From assembly GCA_014237465.1 (NCBI GenBank), contig JABZFM010000004.1, positions 1 to 64,000 on the forward strand: a stretch of 64,000 bases of DNA, read 5' to 3'. The stretch's first letter is position 1, and every line of letters starts with the position of its first letter. The notes under the pieces are model-generated. The model was given only the letters and a program-made list of their open reading frames with translations. It ran no database searches and was not told the DNA's origin. Shown here piece after piece: positions 2,380 through 64,000 of this stretch. The position numbers and the translations under genes are program-made. This DNA comes from Desulfobacteraceae bacterium. GTDB lineage: Bacteria; Desulfobacterota; Desulfobacteria; Desulfobacterales; Desulfosalsimonadaceae.

Positions 2380-2463
2380 GATTTGCCTGCCACCTATTAC
2401 TAAACTTTTAAAAAAAACTGATTTTTGTTCAAGTTTGTTGGAAACCCATGTACTTTCATCCAA

Positions 2464-3386: not shown

Positions 3387-3431
3387 AAAGGTTTGACGCA
3401 ATAAACCCCTGCAAACGATTCTGCTTTAAGT

Positions 3432-50534: not shown

Positions 50535-51296
50535 TTACCGCCTCTTTCGGAACTTTATGCGACTCCCCTTTGCCACTTTCTTAGACGATTGACGCAACTC
50601 GCCGCCACCCGGAGGCAGGACATTTTTGTCCTCAGAAGCGACAAATATAAAACGGGACTGGGTTTTACTCCCCTTGTAGGCAGGGACCCTGAAACGGGTT
50701 ACCTGAAAACCGCAGCTCATCAGGAGCTTTTCGAATTTCTTGCTCGGTTCAGCCGACCAAACCGCCAGACACCCCTGTTTGCGAAGTACGCGCTGACACG
50801 CCTGAATGCCTTCCTGACCGTATAGACGGCGGTTCCCTGAATCGGTCATTGCGGCAGGACCATTATCTATATCCAGCAGGATGGCATCAAATTTGCTTTT
50901 AGAACGTGAGATAAGCGCGACGATATCGCCCGTCTGAACATCCACCCGATCGTCTTCCAACGGGTGGCCGTTGAGTTGACCCAGGAACTCACGATTCCAT
51001 TCGACAACGGGACCCAACAGTTCCCCCACCACCACTTGAGCGCAGGGGTTGAGCATGTCAAGCGCCTGACGCAAGGTGTAGCCCATACCCAATCCGCCAA
51101 TGAGTATGCTGGCCGATTTGCAGCCAAGCAGATGCGCACACCCCAGCCGGGCCAGTTCCAGTTCCGACTCATGGTGAAGACTGTTCATCAATTCCTGACC
51201 GTTGATATTGATCGAGAAATCACTGTCATGCTGATAAAGCTCTATCTCGCCACCGTCCGGGGTCCGGGCGGTGGCTATTTTTATTCTTGGTTTCAT
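50535..51296 (-). CDS. Spermidine-synthase-like (Rossmann) protein
   Basis: A 253-residue protein with a spermidine-synthase/methyltransferase fold. ILIGGLGMGYTLRQALDML is the nucleotide-binding loop, VVVGELLG the second strand end with the ribose-binding acid, DVQTGDI the next turn and DAILLDIDNGP the active-site strand. True spermidine synthases have a conserved polyamine pocket (GGGDG and YxxI motifs) that is not evident here, so polyamine synthesis is not assured. It belongs to the large family annotated 'spermidine synthase-like' in many genomes. Its C-terminus is highly basic (KKVAKGSRIKFRKRR). Single gene. Confidence 0.7.
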   Translation of the reverse strand: MKPRIKIATARTPDGGEIELYQHDSDFSININGQELMNSLHHESELELARLGCAHLLGCKSASILIGGLGMGYTLRQALDMLNPCAQVVVGELLGPVVEWNREFLGQLNGHPLEDDRVDVQTGDIVALISRSKSKFDAILLDIDNGPAAMTDSGNRRLYGQEGIQACQRVLRKQGCLAVWSAEPSKKFEKLLMSCGFQVTRFRVPAYKGSKTQSRFIFVASEDKNVLPPGGGELRQSSKKVAKGSRIKFRKRR

Positions 51297-51356
51297 GGTA
51301 TTATCCTAGTAGTGCAAAGAATTCAGAGGACAGAAGTCAGGAGCCAGTTGGAATTG

Positions 51357-51376
51357 GACTTTTTACAAAGCCACCC
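51357..51376. repeat. 20-base terminal fragment of dispersed family A
   Basis: GGACTTTTTACAAAGCCACC matches the family A end GGACTTTTTACGAAGCCATC at 18 of 20 positions. On the minus strand it contains the last codons and the TAA stop of the adjacent hydrolase gene (51363-51365). Confidence 0.6.
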
Positions 51377-52130
51377 GGATAAAGTTTCTGATTATTTGAA
51401 CTACTTCTGCCGGTTTTTCCAAGGGAGAAAGATGCCCGGCTTCCGCAATGACTGCCAATTCAGATCCGGGGATGTTCTTATGCAAATACTCACCGTACTT
51501 GGGCGGCGTGATATTGTCCTCATCACCCACAACCACCAGCACTTTTGCCTTTATCTCGCCCAGACGGTCCATCACATCAAACTGATCACAGGCGGTAAAA
51601 TCTTTTAACGCCACGTCTGATTTTGTTACGGCAATATTATTCATTATTTCTTTAATTTTTGCTTTGTCACTCTTATTGGAGACCGAAAAATCAACCGCTA
51701 AATCAAGATACTGGGAATAGTCTTTTTCAATGCTTTCAAAAATAAACGGAAATACCTTCAAACGGGCACCTGTATTCATCAGTATGGCCGCCTTAAAAAT
51801 ATCCGGCTTTGTGATCAACAGCTCCAGGGAAACCGCCCCGCCCATGCTTAACCCGCATAAAATGGGGTTTGGTGCCTGTATCTGTTCAATCAAATGCGCC
51901 ACGGATGCCGCGCAATCGGAAATCCGTTCACAGGCCAGTCCTTTTGAATCCTTATGGCCGGGCAGATCAATGGCGATGGTATTGACAATATCAGACAAAT
52001 CCTCAACCTGGGCTGCCCAGAATCCCTTGGATAACGCCGCACCGTGAATAAATATCAAAGACGGTTTATCCGGCGCAAGCGGCCAGTTTCCTGCTAAAAT
52101 ACCAAAATCTTCTATAATCAGTTTTTCCAT
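51363..52130 (-). CDS. Alpha/beta hydrolase, third gene of the mazEF operon
   Basis: A 255-residue alpha/beta hydrolase. LIFIHGAALSKGFW (oxyanion region), CGLSMGGAVSLEL (nucleophile Ser near residue 98), VVVGDEDNITPP (Asp) and AEAGHLSPLEKP (His) complete the triad. The substrate is unknown; the size and motifs fit the broad esterase / C-C hydrolase group. I chose ATG 52130, which begins one base after the mazF stop and would be translated by coupling; the alternative at 52142 lies inside mazF. The stop codon lies in a family A repeat end. Being directly behind a toxin-antitoxin pair is unusual. Confidence 0.8.
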   Translation of the reverse strand: MEKLIIEDFGILAGNWPLAPDKPSLIFIHGAALSKGFWAAQVEDLSDIVNTIAIDLPGHKDSKGLACERISDCAASVAHLIEQIQAPNPILCGLSMGGAVSLELLITKPDIFKAAILMNTGARLKVFPFIFESIEKDYSQYLDLAVDFSVSNKSDKAKIKEIMNNIAVTKSDVALKDFTACDQFDVMDRLGEIKAKVLVVVGDEDNITPPKYGEYLHKNIPGSELAVIAEAGHLSPLEKPAEVVQIIRNFIRVAL

Positions 52131-52131
52131 G

Positions 52132-52467
52132 TTATTCCCCATACATATCAGTTATCAGCTTGCGTAATTGAGCGGCTTTGATCTTTGATAATTTATCGAT
52201 TCTTTTTTTCAATCTCTGTTTGCTAATGGTGCGTATTTGGTCAACTGCGATTTCAGCCTTTTTATTTGCACATTTAATCTGGAGTCGGGTTCTCCATTGT
52301 GGGTGCAGCTTTGAGGTTAAGGGACATACGACAACAGTTTCTAAATATTTATTCATTACATCTTGGCTAATTATCACAACAGGACGTATTTTTTTTATTT
52401 CGCTTCCCATCGCAGGATTGAGATCAGCAAAATATACTTCGTACCTTTTAATATTCAAAGTCTTCAT
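52132..52467 (-). CDS. mazF: MazF/PemK-type mRNA interferase toxin
   Basis: A 111-residue toxin of the MazF fold. KRYEVYFADLNPAMGSEIKK then RPVVIISQDVMN at the N-terminus, VVVCPLTSKLHPQWRTRLQI in the middle and AVDQIRTISKQRL at the end are standard. It cleaves mRNA at short specific sites when freed from MazE. I chose ATG 52467, which overlaps the antitoxin gene by 20 bases; a longer frame to 52704 would translate mazE out of frame. Confidence 0.9.
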   Translation of the reverse strand: MKTLNIKRYEVYFADLNPAMGSEIKKIRPVVIISQDVMNKYLETVVVCPLTSKLHPQWRTRLQIKCANKKAEIAVDQIRTISKQRLKKRIDKLSKIKAAQLRKLITDMYGE

Positions 52468-52720
52468 CCTCCAGCCCGTCAAGAAGCGCTGTGTCAAAAT
52501 CGTCCCAATCTTCTTTTTCGTCAGCCATGGCTTTATACGTATCTTCCCAAGAAAGTTTATTGTCGTCTTTCTTCCGAAGAAGCAGTCCCCTGTCTGTTTC
52601 TTCAAGCAAAAGGGAGTTATTAAGATCATATTTCTGAAGGAGTTCTTTGGGTATGCGAACCCCCTTAGAATTTCCAATAGGGACAAGTTTAATATCCCTT
52701 GCACGTATTTGTTTTTCCAT
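52448..52720 (-). CDS. mazE: MazE-type antitoxin (AbrB/SpoVT swapped-hairpin)
   Basis: A 90-residue antitoxin. IKLVPIGNSKGVRIPKELLQ (residues 10-29) is the AbrB-like DNA-binding hairpin; the acidic C-terminus (EKEDWDDFDTALLDGLEDED) wraps and inhibits MazF. It precedes and overlaps mazF, the typical order. A perfect palindrome overlaps its promoter and is the likely autoregulatory operator. Confidence 0.9.
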   Translation of the reverse strand: MEKQIRARDIKLVPIGNSKGVRIPKELLQKYDLNNSLLLEETDRGLLLRKKDDNKLSWEDTYKAMADEKEDWDDFDTALLDGLEDEDFEY

Positions 52721-52755
52721 AGTTATTGTTCCTTAAATTATTATTGAGCTTGTGG

Positions 52756-52791
52756 TGTAATTATTGTAATTACATTTATAAATAAAGTCAA
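52756..52791 (-). promoter_or_regulatory. mazEF promoter with overlapping palindromic operator
   Basis: On the minus strand TTGACT (52791-52786), a 17-base spacer and TACAAT (52768-52763) make a strong sigma-70-type promoter. TGTAATTA-N3-TAATTACA (52756-52774) is a perfect 8-bp inverted repeat covering the -10 box. A MazE-MazF complex bound there would block transcription, the usual control of such systems. Confidence 0.75.
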
Positions 52792-52872
52792 GCTTAGAAT
52801 AAAATAGCATGAGGCCTGTATAATATTAAAATAAACGATATTTCGTACAACAAATCATTGAACGTGGACGCC

Positions 52873-53035
52873 TAGTGTCTCGTCAAGGATGAAATGGCGC
52901 AAGATTGCGCCGTAATTTTTTGTGCCTGCAAGGCACGACTCGAGGAGCATAGTGGGCTACGCGACTCAAGTCGTAACAACGCAGGCGCGAAAATGGACAA
53001 GCAATATGCGTCAGTTCAGAGTTGACGAGACACTA
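52873..53035. mobile_element. 163-bp MITE-like element with perfect 14-bp terminal inverted repeats
   Basis: TAGTGTCTCGTCAA (52873-52886) and TTGACGAGACACTA (53022-53035) are exact inverted ends. Inside are short hairpins: GGCGCAAGATTGCGCC, TGCCTGCAAGGCA, and CGACTC/GAGTCG-like arms. There is no open frame, so it would need a transposase in trans. Its right end supplies the stop codon (TAG, minus strand) of the M23-like gene. A target-site duplication is not obvious. Confidence 0.75.
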
Positions 53036-53689
53036 ATTCTGTGCGGCCTTAAACTGGCTGCACCGGGTAAATACCTTTGATACATCCAATTCATCATCAT
53101 GTTCAATAATCGAATATTTGGGAGAGATTGCTTTTAAGGGATCCATAAACACAGACCGGTCCACCCTGTTGAGAAACTCCCATTCCAGGCAGTTGGCCGG
53201 CGGCAGCAAATCCGATTTTGTCAGAGATATGTGCAAATGGGGTAACAGAATTTGCTTTTTATTTTCAAACCCTGAAATTTTTGCAAATACCTGCCCTTGT
53301 TTAATTTCATCCCCGATTTTCAGATTTTTACCCGGATTCAGGTGCCCAAACAGCGACAGCAGTGCCGGTTGATCCGGATCATCGAAACAATGACTGGTGA
53401 TGACTGTTTTTCCGAGAAAATCTTCTGTGATATGTTCCACCCGGCCATCATAGAGCATGGGGACTTTAACAGTTTCATCCAGTCGGAAGTATTCATTGCG
53501 GGTGTTTGTAAAAAAACACAGATCCAGTCCTTCGTGTAAAGACCTGCGAATCCCTTTGGTTCCCCACCATTTTTTTTCCGAACCAAACATCATGCCCTGA
53601 AATAAAATAAACCGGTCAAAATCACACGCATTCAGTTTATTTATGCGGATCAGATAAGATACAAATTTTGATTGTGGCAAATGTTTCAT
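53033..53689 (-). CDS. M23 family peptidase-like protein, C-terminus set by a MITE
   Basis: A 218-residue soluble protein with an M23/LytM-like fold (about residues 45-160). SLHEGLDLCFF holds the first metal-ligand motif (HxxxD), GHLNPG and LPHLHISL the others, so a zinc site is possible. There is no signal peptide or membrane segment, unusual for a peptidoglycan hydrolase, so it may act on cytoplasmic or foreign substrate or depend on another export route. Its TAG stop is the first three bases of the inserted element at 53035, so the original C-terminus was probably different or longer. Start ATG 53689 has no strong ribosome binding site. Confidence 0.65.
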   Translation of the reverse strand: MKHLPQSKFVSYLIRINKLNACDFDRFILFQGMMFGSEKKWWGTKGIRRSLHEGLDLCFFTNTRNEYFRLDETVKVPMLYDGRVEHITEDFLGKTVITSHCFDDPDQPALLSLFGHLNPGKNLKIGDEIKQGQVFAKISGFENKKQILLPHLHISLTKSDLLPPANCLEWEFLNRVDRSVFMDPLKAISPKYSIIEHDDELDVSKVFTRCSQFKAAQN

Positions 53690-53701
53690 AATTGTTGATC
53701 C

Positions 53702-53883
53702 GGTAAGAAGCCAGATTTAAATGGCAAAGAAAAAAGCTTCACCATTCTTATGAAAATTGGCAAGGCGCACAAATTCGTCAGGAATGAGGCGTAGCATGCC
53801 TACCCCCCCCCCCCCCCCCCCGCGAAAGAATGCAGACGAAGAATGCAGTGCAACACAGAATTTGGACTTTTTACGAAGCCATC
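53702..53883 (+). repeat. Dispersed repeat family A, copy 3, carrying a 19-base C run
   Basis: Same orientation as copy 1; GGTAAGAAGCCAGATTTAAA opens it and GGACTTTTTACGAAGCC closes it. The centre is replaced by new sequence containing 19 consecutive C (53803-53821). Its right end stops five bases before the stop codon of the TPR gene. Confidence 0.8.
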
Positions 53884-53887
53884 ATTA

Positions 53888-55105
53888 TTAAATAGAAGAC
53901 TGATATCTGGCGGCTTCTTTTGTGTTCCCCAATGCAGTGTACAACTCATAAATCCTCTGATAATAATCGTCTTTACTGTCCGGATCTTCCTGCAGGATAG
54001 ATAAATAAAGATCAAGCAGTTGAGAAGATCTTTCACCGCATGCAAAACAAAGCTCCGCATATCTTCGCAGAACAAACGGATCGGTCCTGACGCCACACTT
54101 GGTACAACCGTTAAGAATCTGGGCGTAAATATCACGGGCCCTCTCCAGATCACCCATTGCCTCATATGTCTTGGCCAGTGACCGGGTAATAATCTCATTT
54201 TGCCCGAAGCTGTTTTCACAGGCAAGAAACAGGGACTCAGCGTCAGCGTATCTTTTCATCTGATAATATGTTTCCCCCAGAAGCATCCGGACAGGAAATG
54301 TTTCTTTTAATGCGCCCGGGCATTGCTCAATAAGCGCAACCGCGTCATCATGATTTTTAGTCACCCAGTAAATGTCGCAAAGCACCTGGTATGCCCGAAC
54401 CTCCTGGTCATTTACTTCGATAAATTCCTCAAGCAGCTTCCGGGCCCGGTCATATTGGCCCAGGTTCACCAATGCGGTTGAAAGTTCCAGCGGGATTAAA
54501 GGCTGTTCAAGTCCAGACCCATTTATTGAATCCGTAAACTTTTCCACGGCCACTTCAAAATCACCATTATTTAGCGCAATAAATCCCTGTTTAAATGCCT
54601 GATCATAGCTCAGATAAATTTTTCTGATATCTTTGGGCAGGGCATTGCACAGAATTGAAAAATATTCTTCATCACTGTCTATTTCTTCGGCAGTCGGAAA
54701 TGGTTCTGATCCTGAACTAAACATTTTTGTATCATCCGGATCATTTGATGCAAACGCCTGATGCAGTTTTTTTAATGTGGTTTTAACCTCTTCCTTTAAA
54801 TTAACATTTTCCGTTAATTCGAAAGCCAGTTCCAGTAAATCTTCAGCTTCGGTATAATTTTGAGACGCAATCAGGTGCTCGCTGTTCTGCTGATGAGCCA
54901 GCGCAAGGGCTTCCTTTGAATTTTTAATTTTTTCATAAAGGCGCTGGATCAGATTCTCTTTTTCCGGAAACCTGCTTTCAGTTTTGTTGAGTGCTTTTTC
55001 ATATTCAATTTTCGCAGCGCCGAATTCTTTGACTTTAAAAAAGTTATCTCCAATCAGTTCTATCTCTTCCGGTGCTTTACCGGTTAAAAAGCTGAACAAC
55101 CCCAT
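53888..55105 (-). CDS. Tetratricopeptide repeat protein
   Basis: A 405-residue TPR protein without signal peptide. Repeats are clearest at about residues 18-55, 175-205 (KQGFIALNNGDFEVAVEKFT), 208-240, 276-310 and 311-345 (AKTYEAMGDLERARDIYAQI). Residues about 60-120 are helical and charged. Two Cys pairs, CTKC and CFAC, 17-20 residues apart in the last third, could bind zinc. TPR arrays bind partner proteins; no partner is indicated. It is the only gene between repeat A3 and the small membrane protein. Function unknown. Confidence 0.75.
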   Translation of the reverse strand: MGLFSFLTGKAPEEIELIGDNFFKVKEFGAAKIEYEKALNKTESRFPEKENLIQRLYEKIKNSKEALALAHQQNSEHLIASQNYTEAEDLLELAFELTENVNLKEEVKTTLKKLHQAFASNDPDDTKMFSSGSEPFPTAEEIDSDEEYFSILCNALPKDIRKIYLSYDQAFKQGFIALNNGDFEVAVEKFTDSINGSGLEQPLIPLELSTALVNLGQYDRARKLLEEFIEVNDQEVRAYQVLCDIYWVTKNHDDAVALIEQCPGALKETFPVRMLLGETYYQMKRYADAESLFLACENSFGQNEIITRSLAKTYEAMGDLERARDIYAQILNGCTKCGVRTDPFVLRRYAELCFACGERSSQLLDLYLSILQEDPDSKDDYYQRIYELYTALGNTKEAARYQSSI

Positions 55106-55269
55106 TTAAACACTCCTGTATGATTTTAGTTTGATGTAATTATAATTTCATGCTATTAAAACAATAATCAATAAACGAATGAGAAATTAAGTCTTCAGAA
55201 GAAAGCCCGTAAAAATTTTTGATTTTAAACCATTCCCGATGGGAATTAAAGGGTCAAAAAAGGATAAAT

Positions 55270-55512
55270 ATGTTTCAATTACTACTATTTACCGGAAGTA
55301 TTATCGCCTTTATCATCGGCGGACTGGTGGTATTAATCGGTATTGGTGCAATTACAGGCTGTGCCGGCGGCCTGATCGTTATGATGGCCGGCGGAATTGT
55401 CGCATTTTTAGGCGTCTGGTCTGCAATCGCCTTCTTCCTTCCATTGCCGGAAAATATCCCGTCAAAAGCCGGGGTAATCAACCTGATCAAACATGATGGG
55501 AAATGGAAGTAA
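55270..55512 (+). CDS. Small membrane protein (80 aa), unknown function
   Basis: Two hydrophobic segments (about residues 3-25 and 28-55) joined by a Gly-Cys-Ala-Gly-Gly turn, then a short basic C-terminus ending HDGKWK. The glycine-rich helices (IIGGLVVLIGIGAI, IVMMAGGIVAF) suggest tight packing or oligomers. I chose ATG 55270 after AAAAGGATAAAT; the frame is open back to 55219 but those residues are hydrophilic and unlikely. Divergent from the TPR gene and convergent with phaR1. No family recognised. Confidence 0.65.
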   Translation: MFQLLLFTGSIIAFIIGGLVVLIGIGAITGCAGGLIVMMAGGIVAFLGVWSAIAFFLPLPENIPSKAGVINLIKHDGKWK

Positions 55513-55576
55513 AACCCCGGTTCCAGAGTGCCCGGCTTTAAATTATCCATAGAAGAAATTTCTCTAAAAACCCGGG

Positions 55577-55718
55577 AAGTTTGAAGTTGAAAGTGAGCTA
55601 AAGTGCCTAAAGTTAATGGTATACCTACGGCATTATCTGTTTTTATTAAAAATGATTGTGCGCTTAGCGCAGTCATAAACTTTAGGCGCTTAAAACTTTA
55701 GGCACTTCAGGTCACTCA
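55577..55718. repeat. Dispersed palindromic repeat family B, copy 2
   Basis: Same layout as copy 1 at 23049: inverted ends AGTGAGCTAAAGTGCCTAAAG / CTTTAGGCACTTCAGGTCACT and a centre with TACGGCATTATC and AAAATGATTGTGCGCTTAGC. The arms have changed together (the GATCT of copy 1 is GCCT here on both sides), which preserves base pairing. It lies between two convergent genes. Confidence 0.8.
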
Positions 55719-55775
55719 TTTTCTTTTATCAGGCAAAACCTCTGACCTGGCCTTAAGACTCATGCCCTCTGGTAT

Positions 55776-56330
55776 TTATTTCTTCTCCAGTTCCTTAACT
55801 TTTCGGGTTAGTGCGGTCACTCGTTCGGACAGCTCATTCACCTGATCTTTAGACGACAGGTTCATCACTTTAAGTCCTTCAGAGACCCGCTGATCGATAT
55901 TGTCAATTATCCAGGACTTCAGGTTATTTGCAAAACCCATAATCTCATTTTTTAAATTTAAACCTTCCGATTCTGAAATCTCCTTATCGTTAACCAGGCT
56001 GTTAACCAGTTTTTCTATTTCATCTTTTGACATGGTTAAAGCACTTTGCCACAGGGAAACATACTTTTTACCATAACCGAAAAGCGTGCCTCTGCCTTTA
56101 CGCAACATCTGCATCAGCACCCGTGACGGCACTGCTTTATCTGTACCTGAATCTTCTCTTGCCAGGAGCTGAGAAACGATAGAAGATGTCAGATCATCGC
56201 CTGTTTCATTATCAATAATTGACACCTCTTCACCGGACTTAATCAGAACTGCAAGTCGATCCATTGTCAGATAACGCTTATCGGTTGTATCATAGAGCTT
56301 TCGATTGGCGTATTTTTTTATCAAATGCAT
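55776..56330 (-). CDS. phaR: PhaR-type polyhydroxyalkanoate synthesis regulator 1
   Basis: A 184-residue regulator. Residues 1-65 are the PHB/PHA accumulation regulator DNA-binding domain: LIKKYANRKLYDTTDKRYLT and VSIIDNETGDDLTSSIVSQL. The rest is helical and phasin-like (SLWQSALTMSKDEIEKLVNS, then a C-terminal heptad coil VNELSERVTALTRKVKELEK). In known systems PhaR represses phasin genes and leaves DNA when granules form. It lacks only a phaC gene nearby. AGGAGGG precedes ATG 56330. It is divergent from the wax-ester synthase gene; its own promoter holds the TGACGC-N3-GCGTTA palindrome. A second paralogue is at 60751-61410. Confidence 0.88.
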   Translation of the reverse strand: MHLIKKYANRKLYDTTDKRYLTMDRLAVLIKSGEEVSIIDNETGDDLTSSIVSQLLAREDSGTDKAVPSRVLMQMLRKGRGTLFGYGKKYVSLWQSALTMSKDEIEKLVNSLVNDKEISESEGLNLKNEIMGFANNLKSWIIDNIDQRVSEGLKVMNLSSKDQVNELSERVTALTRKVKELEKK

Positions 56331-56466
56331 ACACCCTCCTGAAAAAACATTTTATCTCTTAAAGTTAAAATCCATAAAATATTAATGATAAAATAGCTAA
56401 AACGCAATCCGGAACAACAAAAAAAGTCTATAAAATCACGGATATCTCCGGTAACCGGTATAAACG

Positions 56467-56495
56467 AATATGACGCTGCGCGTTATAAGTGTCAA
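56467..56495 (-). promoter_or_regulatory. phaR1 promoter with palindromic operator in the spacer
   Basis: On the minus strand TTGACA (56495-56490), exactly 17 bases and CATATT (56472-56467) make a promoter directed at phaR1, about 130 bases upstream of its ATG. The spacer contains the 15-bp palindrome TGACGC-TGC-GCGTTA (56471-56485, plus-strand reading). The same architecture occurs in front of the phasin gene (62232-62280). PhaR is the most likely binder, giving autoregulation; this is inference. Confidence 0.7.
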
Positions 56496-56605
56496 GCTTT
56501 TTTAACCTTTTTGATTTTTTAAACCTAAATTTTCAGATTGCATTCACTATTATCCTCTGATAATAAATGAAAATATACCGTTTAAAATTTCTAAGGAGGC
56601 ATGCA

Positions 56606-58288
56606 ATGAAAAAACAGGTTGAAATCATGTCAAGTATTGACAATTTCTGGCTTCACATGGATCACCCAACTAACCTGATGGTCATTACAGCATTTCTTCA
56701 ATTTGACGAACCCCTGGACTTTGACCGTCTGGTTGAAACTATCAAAAACCGGTTGCTGTGTTACGATCGTTTTAAAAAACGGGTAGTCCGCCCCATCAGC
56801 GGCGTGGGGAATGCTGTCTGGGAACTGGATCCCAAATTTGATATTCGTTCGCACCTGCATCGTATTGCGTTACCGTCTCCCGGGAACAAGGAAGCGCTCC
56901 AGGAACTCATCAGCGATTTGACCGCAACCCCGCTTGACCCGACCAAACCGCCCTGGCAGGCCCATTATATTGAAAATTACGAGGGCGGCGGGTCCGTATT
57001 ATTTATTCGCATCCATCACTGTATCGGGGACGGCATTTCATTGATCCGTGTTCTGCTTTCCACGGCAGACTTAGAACCGAATGCCATGTGGACCGACACG
57101 GTCGATGAATTAAAAGGTGAAAAAGAAGACTCCAATTTTTTTTCGCCTTTTGAAAAAACGTTTAAAAAAATCAACCGGGCAAAAAAACGGGCCTTCAAAG
57201 TCAGCGATTTTATTTCCAAAGAAATCGAAGCCAGTATTGCCAACCCCTCACACATTATCAAACGCGCAAAACTGGTGGGCAAATACGCTGTTGATGCCAC
57301 CGCGGTGATCAGCAAAATCCTGATTATGCCGGCGGACAAAAAAACCGTTTTTAAAGGCGAACTTGGCATCCGAAAAAGCGTTGCGTTCAGTAACCCCCTT
57401 CCGGTTCCTGATATTAAAGTCATTGGCAAGTATTTTAACGCCACCATTAACGACATTCTCGTATCAATGGTGACCGGAGCCCTGCGACGATACCTGCAGC
57501 AATCCAACAACCTGGTGGGTGATCTGGACATTCGGGTGGCGATGCCGATCAATATCCGCCCGCTGGAAGATGAAATCACGCTGGGCAATCAGTTCAGCCT
57601 GATACTCGTTTCGCTGCCGGTGCATATCGATGATCCGGTGCTTCGGATCCGGGAAGTACAGCGCCGCCTAAATGATTTGAAAGAAGCCCCGGATGCAGCG
57701 ATTGCTTATGTCTTGTTAAATGCGCTCGGCATTTCATCCGCCAAACTGGCCAAAACCGCCGCTACCATGTTTGCCAACAAAACAACGGGTGTCTTCAGCA
57801 ATGTGCCGGGTCCCCGACAACCATTATTCTTTGCCGGCAAAGAAATTAAAAATATCATGTTCTGGGTTCCCCGTATCGGCGGACTGGGTCTCGGGATCAG
57901 TATTATCAGCTATAATGGAAAAGTTTCTTTAGGAATCGCCACGGATACCGGGCTTGTGCAGGACCCGAAAACAATTTTAGACAATTTTGAAAATGAATAC
58001 CGGATGCTGCTTGGCATGTACCGGGCCGGCCAGATTGAAAAAGACCCCCTGATTATCAATGACCGGTTCCAGGATACGGCTAAAATTACCAAGGAAGAAA
58101 CCAAAGGTGGTACGATTCAGGCAATTCGCTGCAAAGCCATCACCCGAAGCGGCTCCCAATGCCACAACCGGGCGGCAACCGACTCCCTGTACTGCACGAT
58201 TCACCAGAACAAATATGAAAGTTTTGCAGACCTGAAACCAGAATCCGGCAAAGAAAGCAAAAAAGACAATAAAGCTTCGGCCGGATAA
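56606..58288 (+). CDS. Wax ester synthase / diacylglycerol acyltransferase with C-terminal Cys/His module
   Basis: A 560-residue WS/DGAT enzyme. IRIHHCIGDGISLIRVLLST carries the HHxxxDG catalytic motif (about residues 134-140), and TTGVFSNVPGPRQPLFFAGK (about 395) is the second hallmark. It transfers acyl groups from acyl-CoA to a fatty alcohol or diacylglycerol and sits at the membrane/lipid-body interface. ATG 56606 follows AAGGAGG; an earlier ATG at 56567 adds residues without a ribosome binding site. Unusually, the last 60 residues hold C509-x9-C519-x10-C530-x2-H533 (motif RCKAITRSGSQCHNRA), a small zinc-finger-like module, followed by a Lys-rich tail. It is divergent from phaR1. Confidence 0.87.
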   Translation: MKKQVEIMSSIDNFWLHMDHPTNLMVITAFLQFDEPLDFDRLVETIKNRLLCYDRFKKRVVRPISGVGNAVWELDPKFDIRSHLHRIALPSPGNKEALQELISDLTATPLDPTKPPWQAHYIENYEGGGSVLFIRIHHCIGDGISLIRVLLSTADLEPNAMWTDTVDELKGEKEDSNFFSPFEKTFKKINRAKKRAFKVSDFISKEIEASIANPSHIIKRAKLVGKYAVDATAVISKILIMPADKKTVFKGELGIRKSVAFSNPLPVPDIKVIGKYFNATINDILVSMVTGALRRYLQQSNNLVGDLDIRVAMPINIRPLEDEITLGNQFSLILVSLPVHIDDPVLRIREVQRRLNDLKEAPDAAIAYVLLNALGISSAKLAKTAATMFANKTTGVFSNVPGPRQPLFFAGKEIKNIMFWVPRIGGLGLGISIISYNGKVSLGIATDTGLVQDPKTILDNFENEYRMLLGMYRAGQIEKDPLIINDRFQDTAKITKEETKGGTIQAIRCKAITRSGSQCHNRAATDSLYCTIHQNKYESFADLKPESGKESKKDNKASAG

Positions 58289-58341
58289 ATAAAACGGATA
58301 AATAAACCGAAATAAACGATATATCGAGAATATTTAAAAGA

Positions 58342-58379
58342 CGAATGCGAAGAAATTTTTCTTCGCATTCGCCTTTTTT
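58342..58379 (+). terminator. Rho-independent terminator of the wax-ester synthase gene
   Basis: CGAATGCGAAG (58342-58352) pairs with CTTCGCATTCG (58361-58371), extended by AAA/TTT inside the loop, and is followed by six T (58374-58379). It lies 54 bases after the stop, facing the convergent ATPase gene. Confidence 0.85.
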
Positions 58380-58409
58380 CAGGCTAAAAATTTCATACCG
58401 GCACTATTT

Positions 58410-59549
58410 TCATTCAAACAGTCGGGACAAACGATATAAATCATCCAGACTCACGATTTCGCTATCCGAAAATGGAATCTGCAAGACATTATTCCCTGAC
58501 CCTGTTTTCTCAATCAGATGATTAACCGACCGGGCATCATTTTTCGCCATTTTCAAAATATTGTTATGGACCGATATCAACTTTTCCTTCAATTCCGGAT
58601 CAATTCGTGTGCCTGCAAATACCTTATCTGAATCAAACCCCTGTATTTCCGTGTTCGAATTTGAAAAGTTCACCCGGTTTATAATAAATCCCCCAAACGG
58701 CATCTCGTTGAGCAGCAGTTTCTCGCTTAGAAAGATGGCTTCATCCATTGGCAGGCGTTGAGGTGTTGCAACAGCCAGGAACAGAGTCTGGTTGCCGGCA
58801 AGCAATTCTTTGACCGCGGTTGCGCGTCGGCTGAAACCTTCAAACATAATATCATCCCACAATTGCATAAATCCGGCAAAATCATCTAAAGCCTGTTTTC
58901 CAAGCACCTTGCTGACACCCTTTAAAACCGGCGATGCGAGGATGTTCAAGAAGCGGATGCCCCACTTTCCGGCCTTTAGATAGGGTTTAAACATCCTCAT
59001 AAAAAAATTGTGACCAAGAATATTCAGCATCCTCTGGGGTGCTTCCAGGAAATCGAGTGCCCGCCGGCTGGGGGGTGTATCCAGAACAATCAGGTCATAT
59101 TGATTCTGATTGAATATTTCATAGAGCTTTTCCATTGCCATATATTCATGGGATCCTGCCATATTGTTCGATAGATGCTGGTAATACCTGTTTTTGAAAA
59201 TTTTTTTCTGGAATTCAGGAGGTGCGTACCGGGCGATTAATTGATCAAATGTGTGTTTGGCATCCAGCATCATGGCATACAAACCTGCATCAGGAGTTGC
59301 TGAGTCCTTACAGACGATGAGGTTTTCAACCGGAACCCGCTGCGCATCCACATCAAATTTTTTCAAACCAAGCGAATCCGCTAAACGTTTTGCCGGATCA
59401 ATCGTCAAAACAATTGTTTTTTTACCGGACAACGCACCATATAAACCGATGGCAGCAGATATTGTCGTTTTTCCGACACCCCCGCTGCCGCAGCATACAA
59501 TAATTTTAGGACCATCCGGGTCCTTGATGCAACTTAACATACCGGTCAT
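58410..59549 (-). CDS. ArsA/Get3-family ATPase 1, signature lysine replaced
   Basis: A 379-residue, single-domain member of the ArsA/Get3 group. IIVCCGSGGVGKTTISAAIG (about residues 16-35) is the deviant Walker A, but position 22 is Ser where the xKGG signature lysine is expected. TIDPAKRLADSLGL is switch-I-like and LIVLDTPPSRRALDFLEAP switch II. The arsenite-binding Cys triad of E. coli ArsA is absent, and no arsenic genes are nearby, so arsenite transport is unlikely. It ends the operon phaR2-ATPase2-ATPase1. Actinobacterial pairs (as I recall, Rv3679/Rv3680) also combine a CGSGGVGKT and a KGGVGKT member. A Get3-like chaperone heterodimer is my inference. Confidence 0.8.
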   Translation of the reverse strand: MTGMLSCIKDPDGPKIIVCCGSGGVGKTTISAAIGLYGALSGKKTIVLTIDPAKRLADSLGLKKFDVDAQRVPVENLIVCKDSATPDAGLYAMMLDAKHTFDQLIARYAPPEFQKKIFKNRYYQHLSNNMAGSHEYMAMEKLYEIFNQNQYDLIVLDTPPSRRALDFLEAPQRMLNILGHNFFMRMFKPYLKAGKWGIRFLNILASPVLKGVSKVLGKQALDDFAGFMQLWDDIMFEGFSRRATAVKELLAGNQTLFLAVATPQRLPMDEAIFLSEKLLLNEMPFGGFIINRVNFSNSNTEIQGFDSDKVFAGTRIDPELKEKLISVHNNILKMAKNDARSVNHLIEKTGSGNNVLQIPFSDSEIVSLDDLYRLSRLFE

Positions 59550-59697
59550 AGATATTTTTTTCGGAATATTATTTAATTGATGACTGAGCCGAAGGCAAAT
59601 ACCTTATTCTGCATTCTGACTTCTGTATTCCTTACCGGATTGATTCCGGCAAAGCCTCGGGGCTCAGATCTGGCCTTGAAGACCAGGTTCTCAAGAT

Positions 59698-60720
59698 TCA
59701 AATAAAAAACGATAATTCTTGAATTTGATTTATTGTCAAATCATTTGTATAGCAAAATGGAATTTCCTGCACGTGGCCGTTTGCTTTTGCATAAATTTCT
59801 TCAATATGCTTTAATTGATCGATTCGCCGACGGTTTAAAATCCTGGCAGATGCGATAAGCTTGCTTACAGCGGAGAAAGAAAAATCCCAGTCACTGCTTT
59901 CAATAGATTCAATCAGTTGCAAATCTGTCCGGTTGAAAACAGCAGGATATACACAATTGATAAATGTGGCAGCAACCGGCATATCAAGTGTATCTTCGGC
60001 CATTGAATAAAATTCAACGGCTTCATTGGCCGGAAGTTCTTCTGGAAGAGATACAAGAACAAGACTGGTTTTTTGATGGTTTTTCAGAAGATGCTGAAGG
60101 CCGCGTATCTGGTTTGCCACCGGGCCTACACGAATCATGTTGATCAATAAATCAGGCAGGCGCAGGAGGCTCATTGCATGACCGGTTGCGGGCGCGTCAA
60201 CAATTATTAGATCATATGTTGCCCCGGCGTGGTTATTTTCTTCCTTTTCCCATCGCCATAAGCGGCCGAGACTCATGACCTCTTTTAAGCCGGGTGTTGC
60301 TTCAAAAAGATACTCAAACAACCTGCTGCGTACTATTTTACCGGCAATGAATCCAGGTGTGACATGCGCACGGACATAGGCTTCCAGCTCAGCTTTGGGA
60401 TCAACACGCGCTCCCCATATGCTTTGCGTTAATATCCGGGGAGCTTCCGACAGGGCCTGGTCCCGGTAGAGCCTTCCAATGGAATCCGTATCTCCGATTT
60501 CCGCCAGAAGCACTTTTTTGTTCATGCGCTCCGCAGCACACGCAAGGGCAATACTGATGGTTGTCTTGCCCACCCCGCCTTTTCCCATCACAAAAATCAG
60601 TCTGCAGGAGAATAACCGTTCCAGCCAGGGATTAGCCGGTTCTCCTGAAACAGAGGAACCGGTAATGCCGGCTTTCTTACCTCCGGGAATCCGATGTCCA
60701 TCTTTGTTCTCGGATGACAT
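59698..60720 (-). CDS. ArsA/Get3-family ATPase 2, canonical P-loop
   Basis: A 340-residue partner ATPase. After a 35-residue hydrophilic tail, LIFVMGKGGVGKTTISIALA (about residues 41-60) has the full xKGGxGKT motif with signature Lys47. LLAEIGDTDSIGRLYRD follows, and DLIIVDAPATGHAMSLLRLP is the DxAPxGH switch II of Get3/ArsA. A helical subdomain (about 130-250) may form the client groove. Its gene starts 30 bases after phaR2 and precedes ATPase 1, so the three are one operon. No metalloid ligands. Likely dimerises with ATPase 1. Confidence 0.82.
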   Translation of the reverse strand: MSSENKDGHRIPGGKKAGITGSSVSGEPANPWLERLFSCRLIFVMGKGGVGKTTISIALACAAERMNKKVLLAEIGDTDSIGRLYRDQALSEAPRILTQSIWGARVDPKAELEAYVRAHVTPGFIAGKIVRSRLFEYLFEATPGLKEVMSLGRLWRWEKEENNHAGATYDLIIVDAPATGHAMSLLRLPDLLINMIRVGPVANQIRGLQHLLKNHQKTSLVLVSLPEELPANEAVEFYSMAEDTLDMPVAATFINCVYPAVFNRTDLQLIESIESSDWDFSFSAVSKLIASARILNRRRIDQLKHIEEIYAKANGHVQEIPFCYTNDLTINQIQELSFFI

Positions 60721-60750
60721 TTTGAAAAAACAGGAAAAATTTATATATGG

Positions 60751-61410
60751 TTATTTTGTCGCTTTTTTGGACGCTGCAGTTTTTTTGGGCGCAGACTTGC
60801 CGGGTTTAGCTGAACTTTTTGCTTTTTCAAGTTTTACGATTTTACTGCTTAATGACTTGATCTTAGACGTAAGATCCAGCACCTGATCCCTGTTGGCAAG
60901 GTTCATCCTGTTGAGCACTTCATTAATCCGATGGTCAATATTCTTTGTAATCCAGTTTTGAATATTATCGCGATATTTTAGTATTTCTTTTTTCATCTTT
61001 GTTGCTTCAAATTCTGAAATCTTGTTATCTTTGACCAGCAAATTAACGACTTTGTCGACCTCCTCCTTGGACATGGTCAACATTTCCTGCCACATGGAGG
61101 CATATTTTTTACCATAATCAGACAATGTATCGCCGCCTTTTCGGAAAAGCTGTACGATAAAACTGGCGGAATCCTGTTTTGTCTTTTTAGAGGCTGCTTT
61201 TTTCGCTTTGGATTTCTGCTTACCGGATTTTGCATCCTTGGCCTTGATCTGTGAGACGACCCCTTTGGTAATGTCCGTTCCGGACTTTGTATCAACGATT
61301 TTGATCTTTTTTCTGGAACGAATTAATTCAGAAATCTGGGAGCGTGTGATGTAATTTTTTGTAACGGTATCGTAAAATCGACCATTGGCGTATTTTTTTA
61401 TCGTATACAT
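60751..61410 (-). CDS. PhaR-type regulator 2 with phasin-like and Lys/Ala-rich tail
   Basis: A 219-residue relative of PhaR1. The N-terminal TIKKYANGRFYDTVTKNYIT and IKIVDTKSGTDITKGVVSQI segments match the PhaR DNA-binding domain. A Lys/Ala-rich linker (about 65-85) and a helical phasin-like region (SMWQEMLTMSKEEVDKVVNL) follow, and the end is KPGKSAPKKTAASKKATK, a histone-H1-like basic tail not present in PhaR1. It may bridge granule and DNA. AAAGGAGGTCC precedes ATG 61410, the strongest ribosome binding site here. It heads the operon with the two ATPases, which ties them to storage granules. Confidence 0.83.
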   Translation of the reverse strand: MYTIKKYANGRFYDTVTKNYITRSQISELIRSRKKIKIVDTKSGTDITKGVVSQIKAKDAKSGKQKSKAKKAASKKTKQDSASFIVQLFRKGGDTLSDYGKKYASMWQEMLTMSKEEVDKVVNLLVKDNKISEFEATKMKKEILKYRDNIQNWITKNIDHRINEVLNRMNLANRDQVLDLTSKIKSLSSKIVKLEKAKSSAKPGKSAPKKTAASKKATK

Positions 61411-61528
61411 CCGGACCTCCTTTTGCGTACATTAATTCAAATTAATTAAAAATGTATTTAAAAAAAATTTGCTTAACCATATCATAAAAAAACTAAAAAC
61501 AAAATATCGGATACATTATTTAATTAAA

Positions 61529-61559
61529 ACGGCGGCCCACTCTGAGTCTGAGCCGCCGT
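61529..61559 (-). terminator. Terminator downstream of the phasin-like gene
   Basis: ACGGCGGC (61529-61536) pairs with GCCGCCGT (61552-61559), with a partly paired ACTCTGAGTCTGA interior. On the minus strand a T-rich run (TTTTAATTAAATAAT) follows. It separates the phasin-like gene from the phaR2 operon and would let the phasin be made in excess. Confidence 0.75.
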
Positions 61560-61573
61560 CATATGATATTTTT

Positions 61574-62125
61574 TTAAGCAGCCTTCTGTTTTTTCAGTAT
61601 TTCAATGTTTGTATTTAATGCCTGCATGGCCAGGGTCAGTTTTTCTATTTCGCTTTTGTTCGGCATATTGACAATGCCCGGCAGAGAATTCAGGCTTTCA
61701 GAGACTTTCTTTTCAACCGTTTCCACCATAGGGATTTTATACATAAACTTTTTACCGTTATCCACGACTTCATCAAGTTTTTTAAGGGCGTCCTTTTCTA
61801 AATCACGGCCTTTTTCCAGAACATCGTCAATGGTTTCGGAAACCTTTTTATACGGGCCGTCAAAATATTCTTTGCCTTTTTCAAGGTTTTTTACAACGAA
61901 TTTCTCATTGTATTCCTTGATTGTCTCTTTACCCTTTTCAATATTTTTGGAAACGTATTTTTCATTGTACTCTTTGAAAGTTTTCTTTCCCTTTTCAATG
62001 GTTTCTGCCAGGTACTTCTCATTGTAGTCTTTGATTTTTTCTGTGACAGCATCAGACGCTTTCTGAATTTTTTCCACGATCACATTGTTTTTTACTTCTT
62101 CTTTTTTTGCTTTTTTTTTCGCCAT
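61574..62125 (-). CDS. Phasin-like granule-associated protein with 19-residue tandem repeats
   Basis: A 183-residue, very Lys/Glu-rich helical protein. Residues 34-52, 53-71 and 72-90 are three tandem repeats, e.g. YNEKYVSKNIEKGKETIKE, each 19 long with conserved Tyr-Asn-Glu-Lys and Glu-Lys-Gly-Lys. The rest is an amphipathic helix and a short C-terminal coil (KLTLAMQALNTNIEILKKQK). The length and composition fit a phasin, and the motif VEKIQKASDAVTEKIKDYNE is like phasin cores. Phasins coat PHA or lipid inclusions. AGGAGGG precedes ATG 62125. Its promoter has two TGACGC-N3-GCGTTA palindromes. Divergent from the patatin gene. Confidence 0.75.
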   Translation of the reverse strand: MAKKKAKKEEVKNNVIVEKIQKASDAVTEKIKDYNEKYLAETIEKGKKTFKEYNEKYVSKNIEKGKETIKEYNEKFVVKNLEKGKEYFDGPYKKVSETIDDVLEKGRDLEKDALKKLDEVVDNGKKFMYKIPMVETVEKKVSESLNSLPGIVNMPNKSEIEKLTLAMQALNTNIEILKKQKAA

Positions 62126-62231
62126 TGTTCTACCCTCCTGTAAGATTGTTTGTATATATTATATATTAACCCGGTTATTAACGCCTGTAACTACCTTAAA
62201 ATCGAATTTTCATTATTTCAAAAGACATCGA

Positions 62232-62280
62232 TGACGCGTTGCGTTATGGCATATATGACGCACCGCGTTATCCATGTCAA
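62232..62280 (-). promoter_or_regulatory. Phasin promoter with two palindromic operators
   Basis: Minus strand: TTGACA (62280-62275), 17 bases, CATATA (62257-62252), pointing at the phasin gene with a leader of about 125 bases. TGACGC-ACC-GCGTTA (62256-62270) fills the spacer, and a second copy TGACGC-GTT-GCGTTA (62232-62246) lies just past the -10, centre to centre 24 bp away. The first site has the same promoter position as that of phaR1. Binding would block RNA polymerase at both. Confidence 0.75.
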
Positions 62281-62388
62281 GTATTTTTTTAAAAAAATTA
62301 ATTTTTTTATGCCAAACCGAATTGACATGAAAATTTCTATAGACTAAGCTGAAACATTCCAAACATTTAAAATTCAAGCGGAGGCACA

Positions 62389-63285
62389 ATGAAACGAGCT
62401 TTAGTTCTATCCGGCGGCGGTGCCAGGGGCGCTTTTCAAGTCGGCGTCATGAAATACCTAAGTGAAATTAACTGGACACCCGATCTGATCTGCGGAACAT
62501 CCGTCGGTGCCATTAATGCCGTGGCATACGGCTCCGGAATGTCAATCGACCAAATAACCCGGCTATGGCAGACTTATCGCCGGAAAAGAATGTACCGCAT
62601 CACGCTGCCGATTTTATTTCGGTCATTGAGAAGCCGAAAACAATTCTCCCCCATGTCCGATACCCGGCCACTTAAAAAGTTGCTTAAAGAGCACTTACAT
62701 TTTGAGGCCCTTCGATTCAGTAAACCAGAAATAATTATCAGCGTCTTGAACATGATTACCGGTCAGATTGTATATTTCAACAAACATGCCGTTAAAATAA
62801 AACACATTATGGCGGCAAGCGCTATTCCCGGCCTGTTCGGCTGGCAGTATATTGACGGTGTTCCTTATTGGGACGCCGGGCTTATGGTTAACACACCGAT
62901 TGCCCCGGCACTCAAGCTTGATGCCAGGGAAATTATCGTTGTGCTGCACTCTCCGGTGGGCGCCTTTAATGCCAGAGAACCGCGCTCGCCCATGGAAGTG
63001 GCGGAACTTGTTTTTGAACATTTTCTGATCGGCTCTTATACCAACTCACTGCCTGATTCTTCATGGCAGGTAAACCCGGATGCCCATTGCCATAAAACCC
63101 CATTACCGAATTCCCCCCAGCTTCAGCTTGCCGCAAAAGGCACAAAGATTTTAACAGTTGCACCGACCCGCATGCTTGGATTTCGATCGTTGCTTAATTT
63201 TTCTCTGCGCCAGGCAAACACCCTAATTGACGAAGGGTATAATAATGCCCGGATGCAGCTGAAACCTCATTTGGATCAACCGTAA
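62389..63285 (+). CDS. Patatin-like phospholipase/lipase
   Basis: A 298-residue patatin-family serine hydrolase. LSGGGARGAFQVGVMKYL (residues about 6-23) forms the oxyanion hole, GTSVGAINAVAYG (about 37-49) holds the nucleophilic Ser, and WDAGLMVNTP (about 161-170) the Asp of the dyad. Such enzymes cleave acyl esters of phospholipids, neutral lipids or PHA-associated membranes. No signal peptide, so the substrate is cytoplasmic, fitting release of stored lipid. GGAGG precedes the ATG. It is divergent from the phasin gene; a TTGACA at 62322 may be its own -35. The palindromes in the shared gap might also control it. Confidence 0.85.
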   Translation: MKRALVLSGGGARGAFQVGVMKYLSEINWTPDLICGTSVGAINAVAYGSGMSIDQITRLWQTYRRKRMYRITLPILFRSLRSRKQFSPMSDTRPLKKLLKEHLHFEALRFSKPEIIISVLNMITGQIVYFNKHAVKIKHIMAASAIPGLFGWQYIDGVPYWDAGLMVNTPIAPALKLDAREIIVVLHSPVGAFNAREPRSPMEVAELVFEHFLIGSYTNSLPDSSWQVNPDAHCHKTPLPNSPQLQLAAKGTKILTVAPTRMLGFRSLLNFSLRQANTLIDEGYNNARMQLKPHLDQP

Positions 63286-63718
63286 AATCCTGTGCTAAAG
63301 GATCAGAATCAGTAGCAAGCCCAGATGGCATGGTTTTGGCTTTGATAATAACCGGTAACCGGCACTCAATTCTCATTACCTTAAACATAATCTGTCTTTT
63401 TGTGAAACAGTTGAAGTGGTTTTAGCACCAAAGATTATGATTAAGTAAGATTACGGTTACAAATTTTTAAATGATTTTACATCAATATTTAAAACCATGG
63501 GAAATACCTGAAAAAAAATCGGTTTCTGGCACCGTACCCGCGTAATACATTGTGGAAAAAAGGATATGGGACACACTGGAAACGGCTGTAAACTAGGAAA
63601 ACGTACAACCTGCCATGGCCGCGATTGAAAATTAAAAAAATGTACAAATAACTCAAATCCCTGTATCATCTATATACGAAAATTAACGGTTACCCTAAAT
63701 TAAGGAGGTGCCTGTGCC
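63286..63718. other. Gap with no recognised gene
   Basis: 433 AT-rich bases. An open frame at 63457-63669 (-) is Phe-rich with no ribosome binding site and is not credible. TAAGGAGGTG at the right end is the ribosome binding site of the next gene. Otherwise nothing is seen. Confidence 0.4.
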
Positions 63719-64000
63719 ATGAGTAAACAGAATCAGGTTATTTTCACAGATACCGGAAACGGGATCGATTTGGCGGTCAAGGAAATATTTGACCATTTTG
63801 GAGGAGTGCGCGCACTTCTAAAATCAAGCAAGGATGTCTACATTAAGGTCAACGGGGTGGATTCAAAAAAATACGCCTATACCGACCCTGAAGTTTTGCG
63901 ACAGGTCATTGTGTATTTACGGGAAAACGGTGCCAACGACATTTATGTCATTGAAAACGCCACCCAGGGCAATATCACCCGCCTGGTTTTTATGGTCACA
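63719..64000 (+). CDS. DUF362 domain protein, 5' part
   Basis: The first 94 codons of a gene that runs off the window. It starts at ATG 63719 after TAAGGAGGTG. DVYIKVNGVDSKKYAYTDPE followed by VLRQVIVYLRENGANDIYVI is the N-terminal block of DUF362 proteins (Lys-x-Asn ... Thr-Asp-Pro-Glu-Val-Leu ... Gly-Ala ... Ile). Full proteins have about 300-400 residues and often two [4Fe-4S] motifs, which would lie beyond the edge. Function unknown. Confidence 0.75.
   Translation, partial: MSKQNQVIFTDTGNGIDLAVKEIFDHFGGVRALLKSSKDVYIKVNGVDSKKYAYTDPEVLRQVIVYLRENGANDIYVIENATQGNITRLVFMVT

Follow-up and report, generated by a model that had tools for sequence, protein, structure and literature searches.

What does a pair of ArsA/Get3-like ATPases do in a gene cluster for storage inclusions? 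The question is raised by positions 55776-63285 of a 64,000-nt stretch of DNA from a Desulfobacteraceae bacterium (contig JABZFM010000004.1, positions 1-64,000; the whole stretch is called the window here). The cluster encodes two PhaR-like regulators, a phasin-like protein, a wax ester synthase/diacylglycerol acyltransferase (WS/DGAT), a patatin-like lipase and two ATPases. The original prediction, made from the letters of the window, held that the ATPases deliver or remove hydrophobic proteins at the inclusion surface under PhaR control. The positions it gave for all seven genes matched our re-examination. Our own reading, which we hold tentatively and at somewhat less than even confidence, is that the cluster is a PhaR-controlled neutral-lipid inclusion regulon that recruited the ATPase pair, homologous to BagA and BagB (BagAB), and that BagAB acts on phasin-type proteins. 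The WS/DGAT would make neutral lipid (wax ester and/or triacylglycerol), the amphipathic phasin-like protein would coat the inclusion and the patatin would mobilize the lipid. The two PhaRs would detect unoccupied surface on the inclusion and act on each of the divergent promoters by way of a 17-bp palindrome. BagA and BagB would form an asymmetric, ATP-driven, Get3-like heterodimer acting on the phasin and the PhaR tails, which keeps amphipathic helices soluble, loads them onto the nascent inclusion or recycles them.

BagAB and its gene neighbors

Sixty relatives were searched. Where a handle is needed, f1 denotes the family of the window genome, f48, f35, f72 and the like denote other families, and G and L denote genomes and loci. 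In f1 genomes with a full BagB, the gene order is patatin - phasin-like - PhaR2 - BagA - BagB - WS/DGAT - PhaR1, and it continues past PhaR1 with a small two-span protein, a TPR protein, an M23-like protein and a hydrolase. This order holds as far as the contigs extend, and some genomes are without some members. The WS/DGAT gene lies beside BagB in 20/20 fetched f1 loci, plus the window. Within 2 kb of the BagAB pair, a PhaR gene was found in all 21 f1 BagB loci and a phasin-like gene in 17 of them (window included). The four loci with no phasin in view are one at a contig edge (L048) and three from genomes of genus g8. In the g8 genomes, a second locus holds the phasin, a PhaR2-like gene and a WS/DGAT (with PhaR1 in two of them; the contig of the third ends), and BagAB itself lies with a patatin, a divergently oriented PhaR and a further WS/DGAT. 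WS/DGAT occurs in 22/22 f1 genomes with a BagAB locus and in 0/13 of those listed without one, these genomes not being phylogenetically independent. The 22 comprise 21 found by the BagB search at 1e-40 and one (G019) with its locus split over contigs.

At L048 the PhaR counted is PhaR1, some bases in the BagA region are masked, and BagB is preceded by 5.3 kb of other genes. Between BagA and BagB, at 1930-7134 of this partly masked locus, lie genes for an iron alcohol dehydrogenase and an aldehyde ferredoxin oxidoreductase. A fatty aldehyde/alcohol route for wax esters is one possible role for them.

Outside f1, 15 of 36 BagB-positive genomes (eight families and genome G676) have a PhaR or a weakly scoring phasin-like gene within 2 kb, compared with 0.24 expected under uniform placement, weak TIGR01837 matches being counted in the expectation. 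This count covers BagB rows above 120 bits. Some of the loci fetched had partly been picked for known nearby PhaR or TIGR01837 matches, so no rate is taken from those loci alone. The arrangements vary. In f48 the order is PhaR - phasin-like - BagA - BagB, and the phasin-like proteins match TIGR01837 with E 5e-19 and 2e-18 (68.6 and 66.3 bits, below the cut-off of 94.7). In f35 a PhaR lies just 5' of BagAB and in the same direction, in f72 (from another class of the phylum) the PhaR just upstream is divergent, and in G676 a codirectional phasin-like gene lies just upstream of BagAB. In f127, f89, f114, f122 and f150, a small phasin-like protein is encoded convergently to BagB, at 9-90 bases in 8/9 rows and 1.65 kb in one. 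The convergent proteins match TIGR01837 weakly (E 4.5e-3 to 3.1e-6, all below the cut-off), and at 0.01 this model finds some match in 39/40 genomes searched. A custom model built from eight of the nine convergent proteins and the two f48 phasins was run on 61 loci, its own sources among them. It matched only these proteins and PhaR or phasin genes of f1, f35, f48 and G676, with no match in 70 other loci (L078-L147, 69 of them actinobacterial).

The storage synthases near this pairing differ between genomes. By model matches, f1 has WS/DGAT, f48 and f72 have a PhaC_N-type synthase and no WS/DGAT, f35 and G603 have both, and G676 has neither. In f48, where PhaC_N matches are strong, BagAB still lies behind a PhaR and a phasin-like gene. 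Because f48 keeps the BagAB-PhaR-phasin arrangement without WS/DGAT, the common partner is the coat/regulator type and not one lipid.

Could this linkage be historical, with BagAB carried along with PhaR by chance and no functional tie? The lipid module does occur without BagAB, but 15 linked genomes in differing gene arrangements, against 0.24 expected, are hard to reconcile with chance. The linked label is also clustered on a BagB tree of 76 rows, where it needs at least 7 changes compared with a shuffled mean of 25.6. Five of the changes are forced by the starred branches of this quick tree, which has several long branches. We consider a purely historical linkage very improbable. In five families with two BagAB paralogs, one clade is linked in 9/10 rows and the other paralogs in 0/10, although in two of the ten unlinked rows the sequence on one side is shorter than 1 kb. 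Two BagAB loci are present in several genomes that belong to the phylum but not to the class (L198-L209, L270-L279); where a phasin-like gene adjoins BagAB there, it is beside one of the two loci.

The lipid module was also followed on its own. Among 389 genomes of the class, BagB was found in 38 (1e-40), PF07879 in 160 and WS/DGAT in 68 (1e-40). One locus from each of the 46 non-f1 WS/DGAT genomes was examined with about 6 kb fetched per side; within 5 kb there was a PhaR in 25, a phasin-like gene in 25 and a patatin in 16, with a contig end within 5 kb in 22. Where the sequence reached 5 kb or more to either side (22 loci), PhaR or phasin lay within 5 kb in 17. At L251 and L253 the WS/DGAT fell below threshold, so that distances were not computed, and no PhaR or phasin match is listed there. 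One open reading frame (ORF) in G283 is labeled BagB, unconfirmed, and this genome has no BagB match at 1e-40. Since the phasin-PhaR-WS/DGAT-patatin module is common in the order without BagAB, judging from these neighborhoods, it appears that in f1 BagAB was added to a module already in place. Among non-f1 genomes of the class, WS/DGAT is present in 7/17 with BagB compared with 46/~353 (Fisher p 0.003, with an approximate total and kinship uncorrected).

The identity of the pair was then taken from model and structure matches. Both ATPases match PF02374 (1.7e-27 for B and 5.4e-26 for A), in agreement with the ArsA/Get3-family assignment made earlier, which left the described BagA/BagB family unnamed. 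The top NCBIfam model is BagB (NF053621) for ATPase B at 298.3 bits and BagA (NF053622) for ATPase A at 111.3 bits. The equivalog cut-offs of 521 and 400 were not reached, and by these matches the two are BagA/BagB homologs, not certified equivalogs. In a single-sequence PDB search, each ATPase best matched one chain of 6bs3 (6bs3_A or 6bs3_B), an entry titled "bacterial Get3-like A and B in Mycobacterium tuberculosis". In profile searches, 6bs3_B was far ahead of other PDB entries for BagB; for BagA, the ArsA1 entry 5zme reached 155.9 bits summed over several domains, compared with 144.5 for 6bs3_A. The predicted BagB structure (mean pLDDT 79.6, low around residues 160-240) had 6bs3_B as its top fold match (TM score 0.79). 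Like the mycobacterial genes (Rv3679/Rv3680, PDB 6bs3-6bs5), the window genes are adjacent and in the order A then B. In contrast to them, the window pair adjoins PhaR, phasin-like and WS/DGAT genes, a linkage unseen in 69 actinobacterial loci.

The two subunits differ at the nucleotide site. In Get3-like dimers, the signature lysine of the Walker A motif contacts the nucleotide of the partner subunit. This lysine is kept in BagA (K in 125/130 rows, motif not found in 5) and lost in BagB (S in 126 of 134 rows, A in 3, P in 3, K in 1 and no motif in 1), as it is in the window pair, with Ser for Lys in BagB. The rows are not all independent, as eight named loci duplicate others, and the single BagB row with K is a long ORF matching both models, where the BagA motif may have been read. 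Because the lysine is kept in one partner and lost in the other, BagA and BagB probably form an obligate heterodimer whose two sites differ. In Get3/TRC40 proteins, every subunit has this lysine in its deviant Walker A motif, and a CxxC zinc motif lies at the dimer interface. BagB shares with them the fold and the P-loop ATPase domain (TM score about 0.5-0.6 by query length). Get3/TRC40 is encoded by one gene, whereas here there is a two-gene pair, a BagB without CxxC and no tail-anchored client in sight. CxxC is absent from 134/134 BagB rows, and 4/130 BagA rows have one anywhere, some loci being duplicates.

Because ParA/McdA-type ATPases belong to the same P-loop superfamily, it is conceivable that BagAB positions or segregates inclusions as they do, with phasin/PhaR serving as an adaptor to DNA or the nucleoid. 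PhaR joins a DNA-binding domain to a phasin-like tail, and the ATPases match a ParA-type model weakly (NF041546, 22.9 and 32.2 bits, cut-off 180 not reached). However, sequence and fold are nearer to BagA/B and Get3 than to ParA, and a two-gene pair whose BagB is without the signature lysine is unlike ParA. We give this explanation little credence. An arsenic pump (ArsA) was rejected: the ATPases score 33.5 and 52.9 bits of 650 with TIGR04291, the BagA alignment has no invariant Cys and BagB has one, beside the P-loop. As the original prediction had said of ars genes, no ars family was found in the scanned cluster proteins. When plasmids were searched with BagA, 189 records came up, none of which reached 60% identity, and among five listed, three are annotated as ArsA or ArsA-related. 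A search of viral contigs found no relative.

A candidate operator for the cluster

A 17-bp palindrome, ATRACGCNNNGCGTYAT, was obtained by comparing divergent f1 promoters. The window has three exact sites, one at the PhaR1/WS-DGAT promoters and a tandem pair in the phasin-patatin interval, and the exact palindrome is absent from the other 55.5 kb. With up to 2 mismatches allowed, the window has 5 matches compared with 0.58 expected, and 0/100 shuffles reach 5. At PhaR1, a TTGACA-17-CATATT motif, recognized by consensus match only, overlaps the palindrome with its spacer and second hexamer. In the module loci, 73/75 exact sites lie beside the starts of phasin, PhaR, patatin or WS/DGAT ORFs (site center from -400 to +120 bases relative to the ORF start). 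The f1 counts are not independent, since the palindrome was derived from f1 promoters. Outside f1, 11/46 WS/DGAT loci have an exact site, and the palindrome precedes PhaR-phasin-BagA-BagB in f48 (exact) and PhaR-BagA-BagB in f35 (one mismatch). No exact site was found in about 2.1 Mb of comparison sequence, which includes L078-L147 (1.39 Mb), 26 unlinked BagAB loci (409 kb), nine second-clade loci (146 kb), f72 (30 kb) and, from the window genome, two other WS/DGAT loci and the polyhydroxyalkanoate (PHA) locus (together 51 kb). The actinobacterial comparison loci are probably GC-richer, which makes chance sites rarer there. As no site is present in their loci, the second paralog clade and f72 do not share the palindrome.

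As far as the excerpt of PMC12849132 goes, the PhaR sites of Ralstonia are likewise a 17-bp palindrome with a single-base center, YTKNTGCRNYGCANMAR, near promoter elements and best conserved at positions 1-4 and 7 from the center. The window palindrome has in common with it the length, the symmetry, the T/A pair at position 7 and, for 2/3 window sites, the GC-RNY-GC core, and differs at position 4 and the outer positions. The Ralstonia consensus is loose, with 70 window positions within 3 mismatches. The palindrome is best described as a candidate PhaR box and not a match, one to which PhaR would bind, and PhaR control of the cluster gains support from its conservation.

PHB_acc_N regulators and a phasin-type gene are shared with the PhaR-phasin control of PHA granules in Ralstonia and Paracoccus, but here a WS/DGAT and a lipase are linked rather than a PHA synthase, and there are two PhaR genes. 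With the triacylglycerol inclusions of actinobacteria, the cluster would share neutral-lipid storage by WS/DGAT with coat proteins. The coat and regulator of the window are instead of the PhaR/phasin type, and the known coat proteins of actinobacterial inclusions belong to other families. PhaR and phasin-like proteins, which are classed as PHA proteins, sit in a conserved module with a wax ester/triacylglycerol synthase and a lipase. If our reading is true, a large group of anaerobes regulates its neutral-lipid inclusions by surface sensing of the PHA type.

The gaps of 30 bases between PhaR2 and ATPase A and 148 bases between A and B had been given correctly, and they make cotranscription of PhaR2 with both ATPases plausible. 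Past the phasin gene, a predicted hairpin has z -1.87, with 9/200 shuffles equally stable. A GC-rich hairpin was present in 12/12 relatives folded, in 10 of them close past the stop and at a greater distance in L051 and L059 (judged by eye). This hairpin may separate the phasin from PhaR2-BagA-BagB in expression level and so keep the coat protein in excess. Since there is no exact palindrome between phasin and PhaR2, palindrome control of BagAB in f1 would need read-through.

Possible clients of BagAB

A chaperone or loader of phasin-type proteins is favored here because the phasin type is the shared neighbor across genomes with differing synthases. The recurrence of the ATPase-coat gene pairing in distant relatives suggests what the ATPase substrates may be. 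A wider form of this idea, in which BagA-BagB is a guided-loading system with phasin coats and PhaR tails as clients and was recruited repeatedly to PHA and neutral-lipid inclusions, is doubtful in our judgment. If true, it would provide the first client class for the BagAB family. To our knowledge, BagAB is widespread and its structures are solved, but no client is known; the primary papers are reportedly those of Hu from 2019 and Whitaker from 2020. A recurrent genomic partner makes the client question a direct binding test.

Several observations weigh against the idea that BagAB acts on phasin-type proteins in a PhaR-controlled regulon. By hydropathy, neither the phasin-like protein nor the PhaRs have a hydrophobic tail of the kind bound by Get3. 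The window sites have 5-6 mismatches to the 17-bp consensus of Ralstonia. BagAB is unlinked in 21 of the 36 non-f1 BagB genomes, namely f26 (6 genomes), f82 (2), f97, f25, f31, f52, f62, G663 of f127, G677 and six more genomes with fewer than 800 bases upstream of the pair. All 70 loci of L078-L147 (69 titled Actinobacteria) were searched and turned up neither a PhaR nor a phasin-like gene, and no BagAB pair was seen within 5 kb in the 46 non-f1 WS/DGAT loci. In the second paralog clade, the phasin-like gene is convergent and outside the operon. G676 (linked) as well as G060 and G075 (unlinked) have no PF07167 or TIGR02946 match, though blanks with PF07167 are not proof of absence because it detects class III PhaC weakly. 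A term search of the main text of three papers on lipid inclusions matched no such ATPases (PMC11980559, PMC10699116, PMC3902926). Finally, the available text of PMC10597346 ties bagAB of M. tuberculosis to glycerol and nitric oxide toxicity.

This last point leads to the main rival, that BagAB is a stress- or metabolite-protection ATPase, co-regulated with storage because the flux of fatty acid, aldehyde or glycerol is toxic at that time, and leaves the coat proteins untouched. The protective role cited for mycobacterial bagAB (PMC10597346, in excerpt) fits this explanation, as do the 69 actinobacterial BagAB loci with no PhaR or phasin nearby and the aldehyde ferredoxin oxidoreductase and Fe-alcohol dehydrogenase genes between BagA and BagB in one relative. 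It leaves unexplained why a phasin-like or PhaR neighbor recurs across lineages with different storage-lipid genes. We rate protection as unlikely but a serious competitor to action on phasin-type proteins.

Another possible explanation, closer to Get3, is that BagAB takes hairpin or membrane-embedded proteins to the inclusion or membrane, in the way Get3 handles tail-anchored proteins; the conserved small two-span protein encoded at 55270-55512 would be one of them. The Get3-like fold is in keeping with this, and the small protein was the only one of 11 proteins measured to have two strongly hydrophobic spans. Its ORF is listed as 55219-55512 from a TTG, and the ORFs of most relatives have 80-81 aa. 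It was found in 14/20 fetched f1 loci. However, it was not found at either locus of the three g8 genomes that keep BagAB, and the same search did not find it near linked BagAB outside f1. Delivery of this kind is improbable.

The original prediction had named a neighborhood analysis of the ATPases as its check. With linkage to PhaR, phasin-like and WS/DGAT genes in f1, and to PhaR or phasin elsewhere, this check did not refute it, within the limits set by the unlinked non-f1 genomes and actinobacterial loci. The PhaR control that it proposed gains from the conserved palindrome. Delivery or removal of hydrophobic proteins is conjectural: no tail-anchored client is visible, and the lone cluster protein measured to have hydrophobic spans was not found in the three g8 genomes with BagAB.

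All component families are already known. Among the matches listed in open-licence literature, we found no report of BagAB- or ArsA-type ATPases with phasins, of phasins with wax esters in sulfate reducers, or of a neutral-lipid PhaR module with a candidate operator.

Other features of the cluster and genome

The features of the cluster and its conserved flank are collected in Table 1.

Table 1. Features of the cluster and its flank, in window positions
Feature	Position	Strand	Evidence
M23-peptidase-like protein, conserved flank	53033..53689	-	PF01551 2.2e-6, 28.2 bits (cut-off 28.7, just missed); syntenic in relatives
TPR-like protein, conserved flank	53888..55105	-	model match and synteny in relatives
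Small (~80 aa) protein, two hydrophobic spans	55270..55512	+	hydropathy
PhaR1, PHB_acc_N DNA-binding domain and phasin-like C-terminal part	55776..56330	-	PF07879 1e-21; PF05597 8.8e-5, below cut-off
Putative PhaR operator ATGACGCTGCGCGTTAT, divergent PhaR1/WS-DGAT promoter region	56470..56486		palindrome comparison
WS/DGAT	56567..58288	+	TIGR02946 365.6 bits, above cut-off 309.95
BagB-like ATPase (ATPase B)	58410..59549	-	NF053621 7.8e-89; 6bs3_B; CGSGGVGKT
BagA-like ATPase (ATPase A)	59698..60720	-	NF053622 6.3e-32; 6bs3_A; GKGGVGKT
PhaR2, PHB_acc_N domain and phasin-like tail	60751..61410	-	PF07879 3.8e-18; PF05597 0.0017, below cut-off
GC-rich hairpin and U-rich bases, terminator-/attenuator-like	61528..61561	-	12 bases past phasin gene; folding
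Phasin-like protein, 19-residue amphipathic repeats	61574..62125	-	TIGR01837 17.3 bits; alignment of relatives
Putative PhaR operator ATGACGCGTTGCGTTAT, first of a tandem pair in the phasin-patatin interval	62231..62247		palindrome comparison
Putative PhaR operator ATGACGCACCGCGTTAT, second of the tandem pair, 24 bases further	62255..62271		palindrome comparison
Patatin-like lipase	62389..63285	+	PF01734 9.6e-29

PhaR1 and PhaR2 score 77.2 and 65.8 bits with PHB_acc_N, both above the cut-off of 25. With the PhaR equivalog model TIGR01848, they score 71.9 and 53.8 bits, below the cut-off of 109.45. No PhaR relative was found among solved structures at 0.01, and the predicted PhaR2 structure is poor overall (pTM 0.29). 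The phasin-like protein of the window does not reach the TIGR01837 cut-off, and its lone Pfam match is to an unrelated coiled-coil family, below cut-off. In self-comparison it has 28 identities at lag 19, the top of lags 7-39, and its mean helical moment exceeds that of five other cluster proteins measured. From the window protein by itself the phasin-like assignment is weak; gene order, the 19-residue repeat and the helical moment argue for it. The copy number of the repeat seems variable among relatives, as judged by alignment gaps. The WS/DGAT has a C-terminal tail with a Cys/His pattern that weakly resembles the HGGxSTG and GvpO N-terminal models. An Rfam scan of 50000-64000 gave nothing at the gathering threshold.

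Two more WS/DGAT genes are present in the genome (G000:C13:24025-25404 and G000:C66:204266-205648), and no PhaR, phasin or palindrome was found in the stretches read around them. No PHA synthase is encoded among the scanned cluster proteins, so the earlier statement that none is present holds for the cluster; it does not hold for the genome, where a class III PhaE-PhaC with its own PhaR lies on another contig (L064; TIGR01836 435.7 bits, cut-off 365.3). The L064 locus has no exact or one-mismatch palindrome. With a class III synthase and its PhaR elsewhere in a stretch without the palindrome, the view of the window cluster as a PHA-granule locus as such was rejected. At L064 (contig C64, 9047-14345), the third PhaR gene is divergent from PhaE and PhaC, and a MaoC-like protein is encoded further on.

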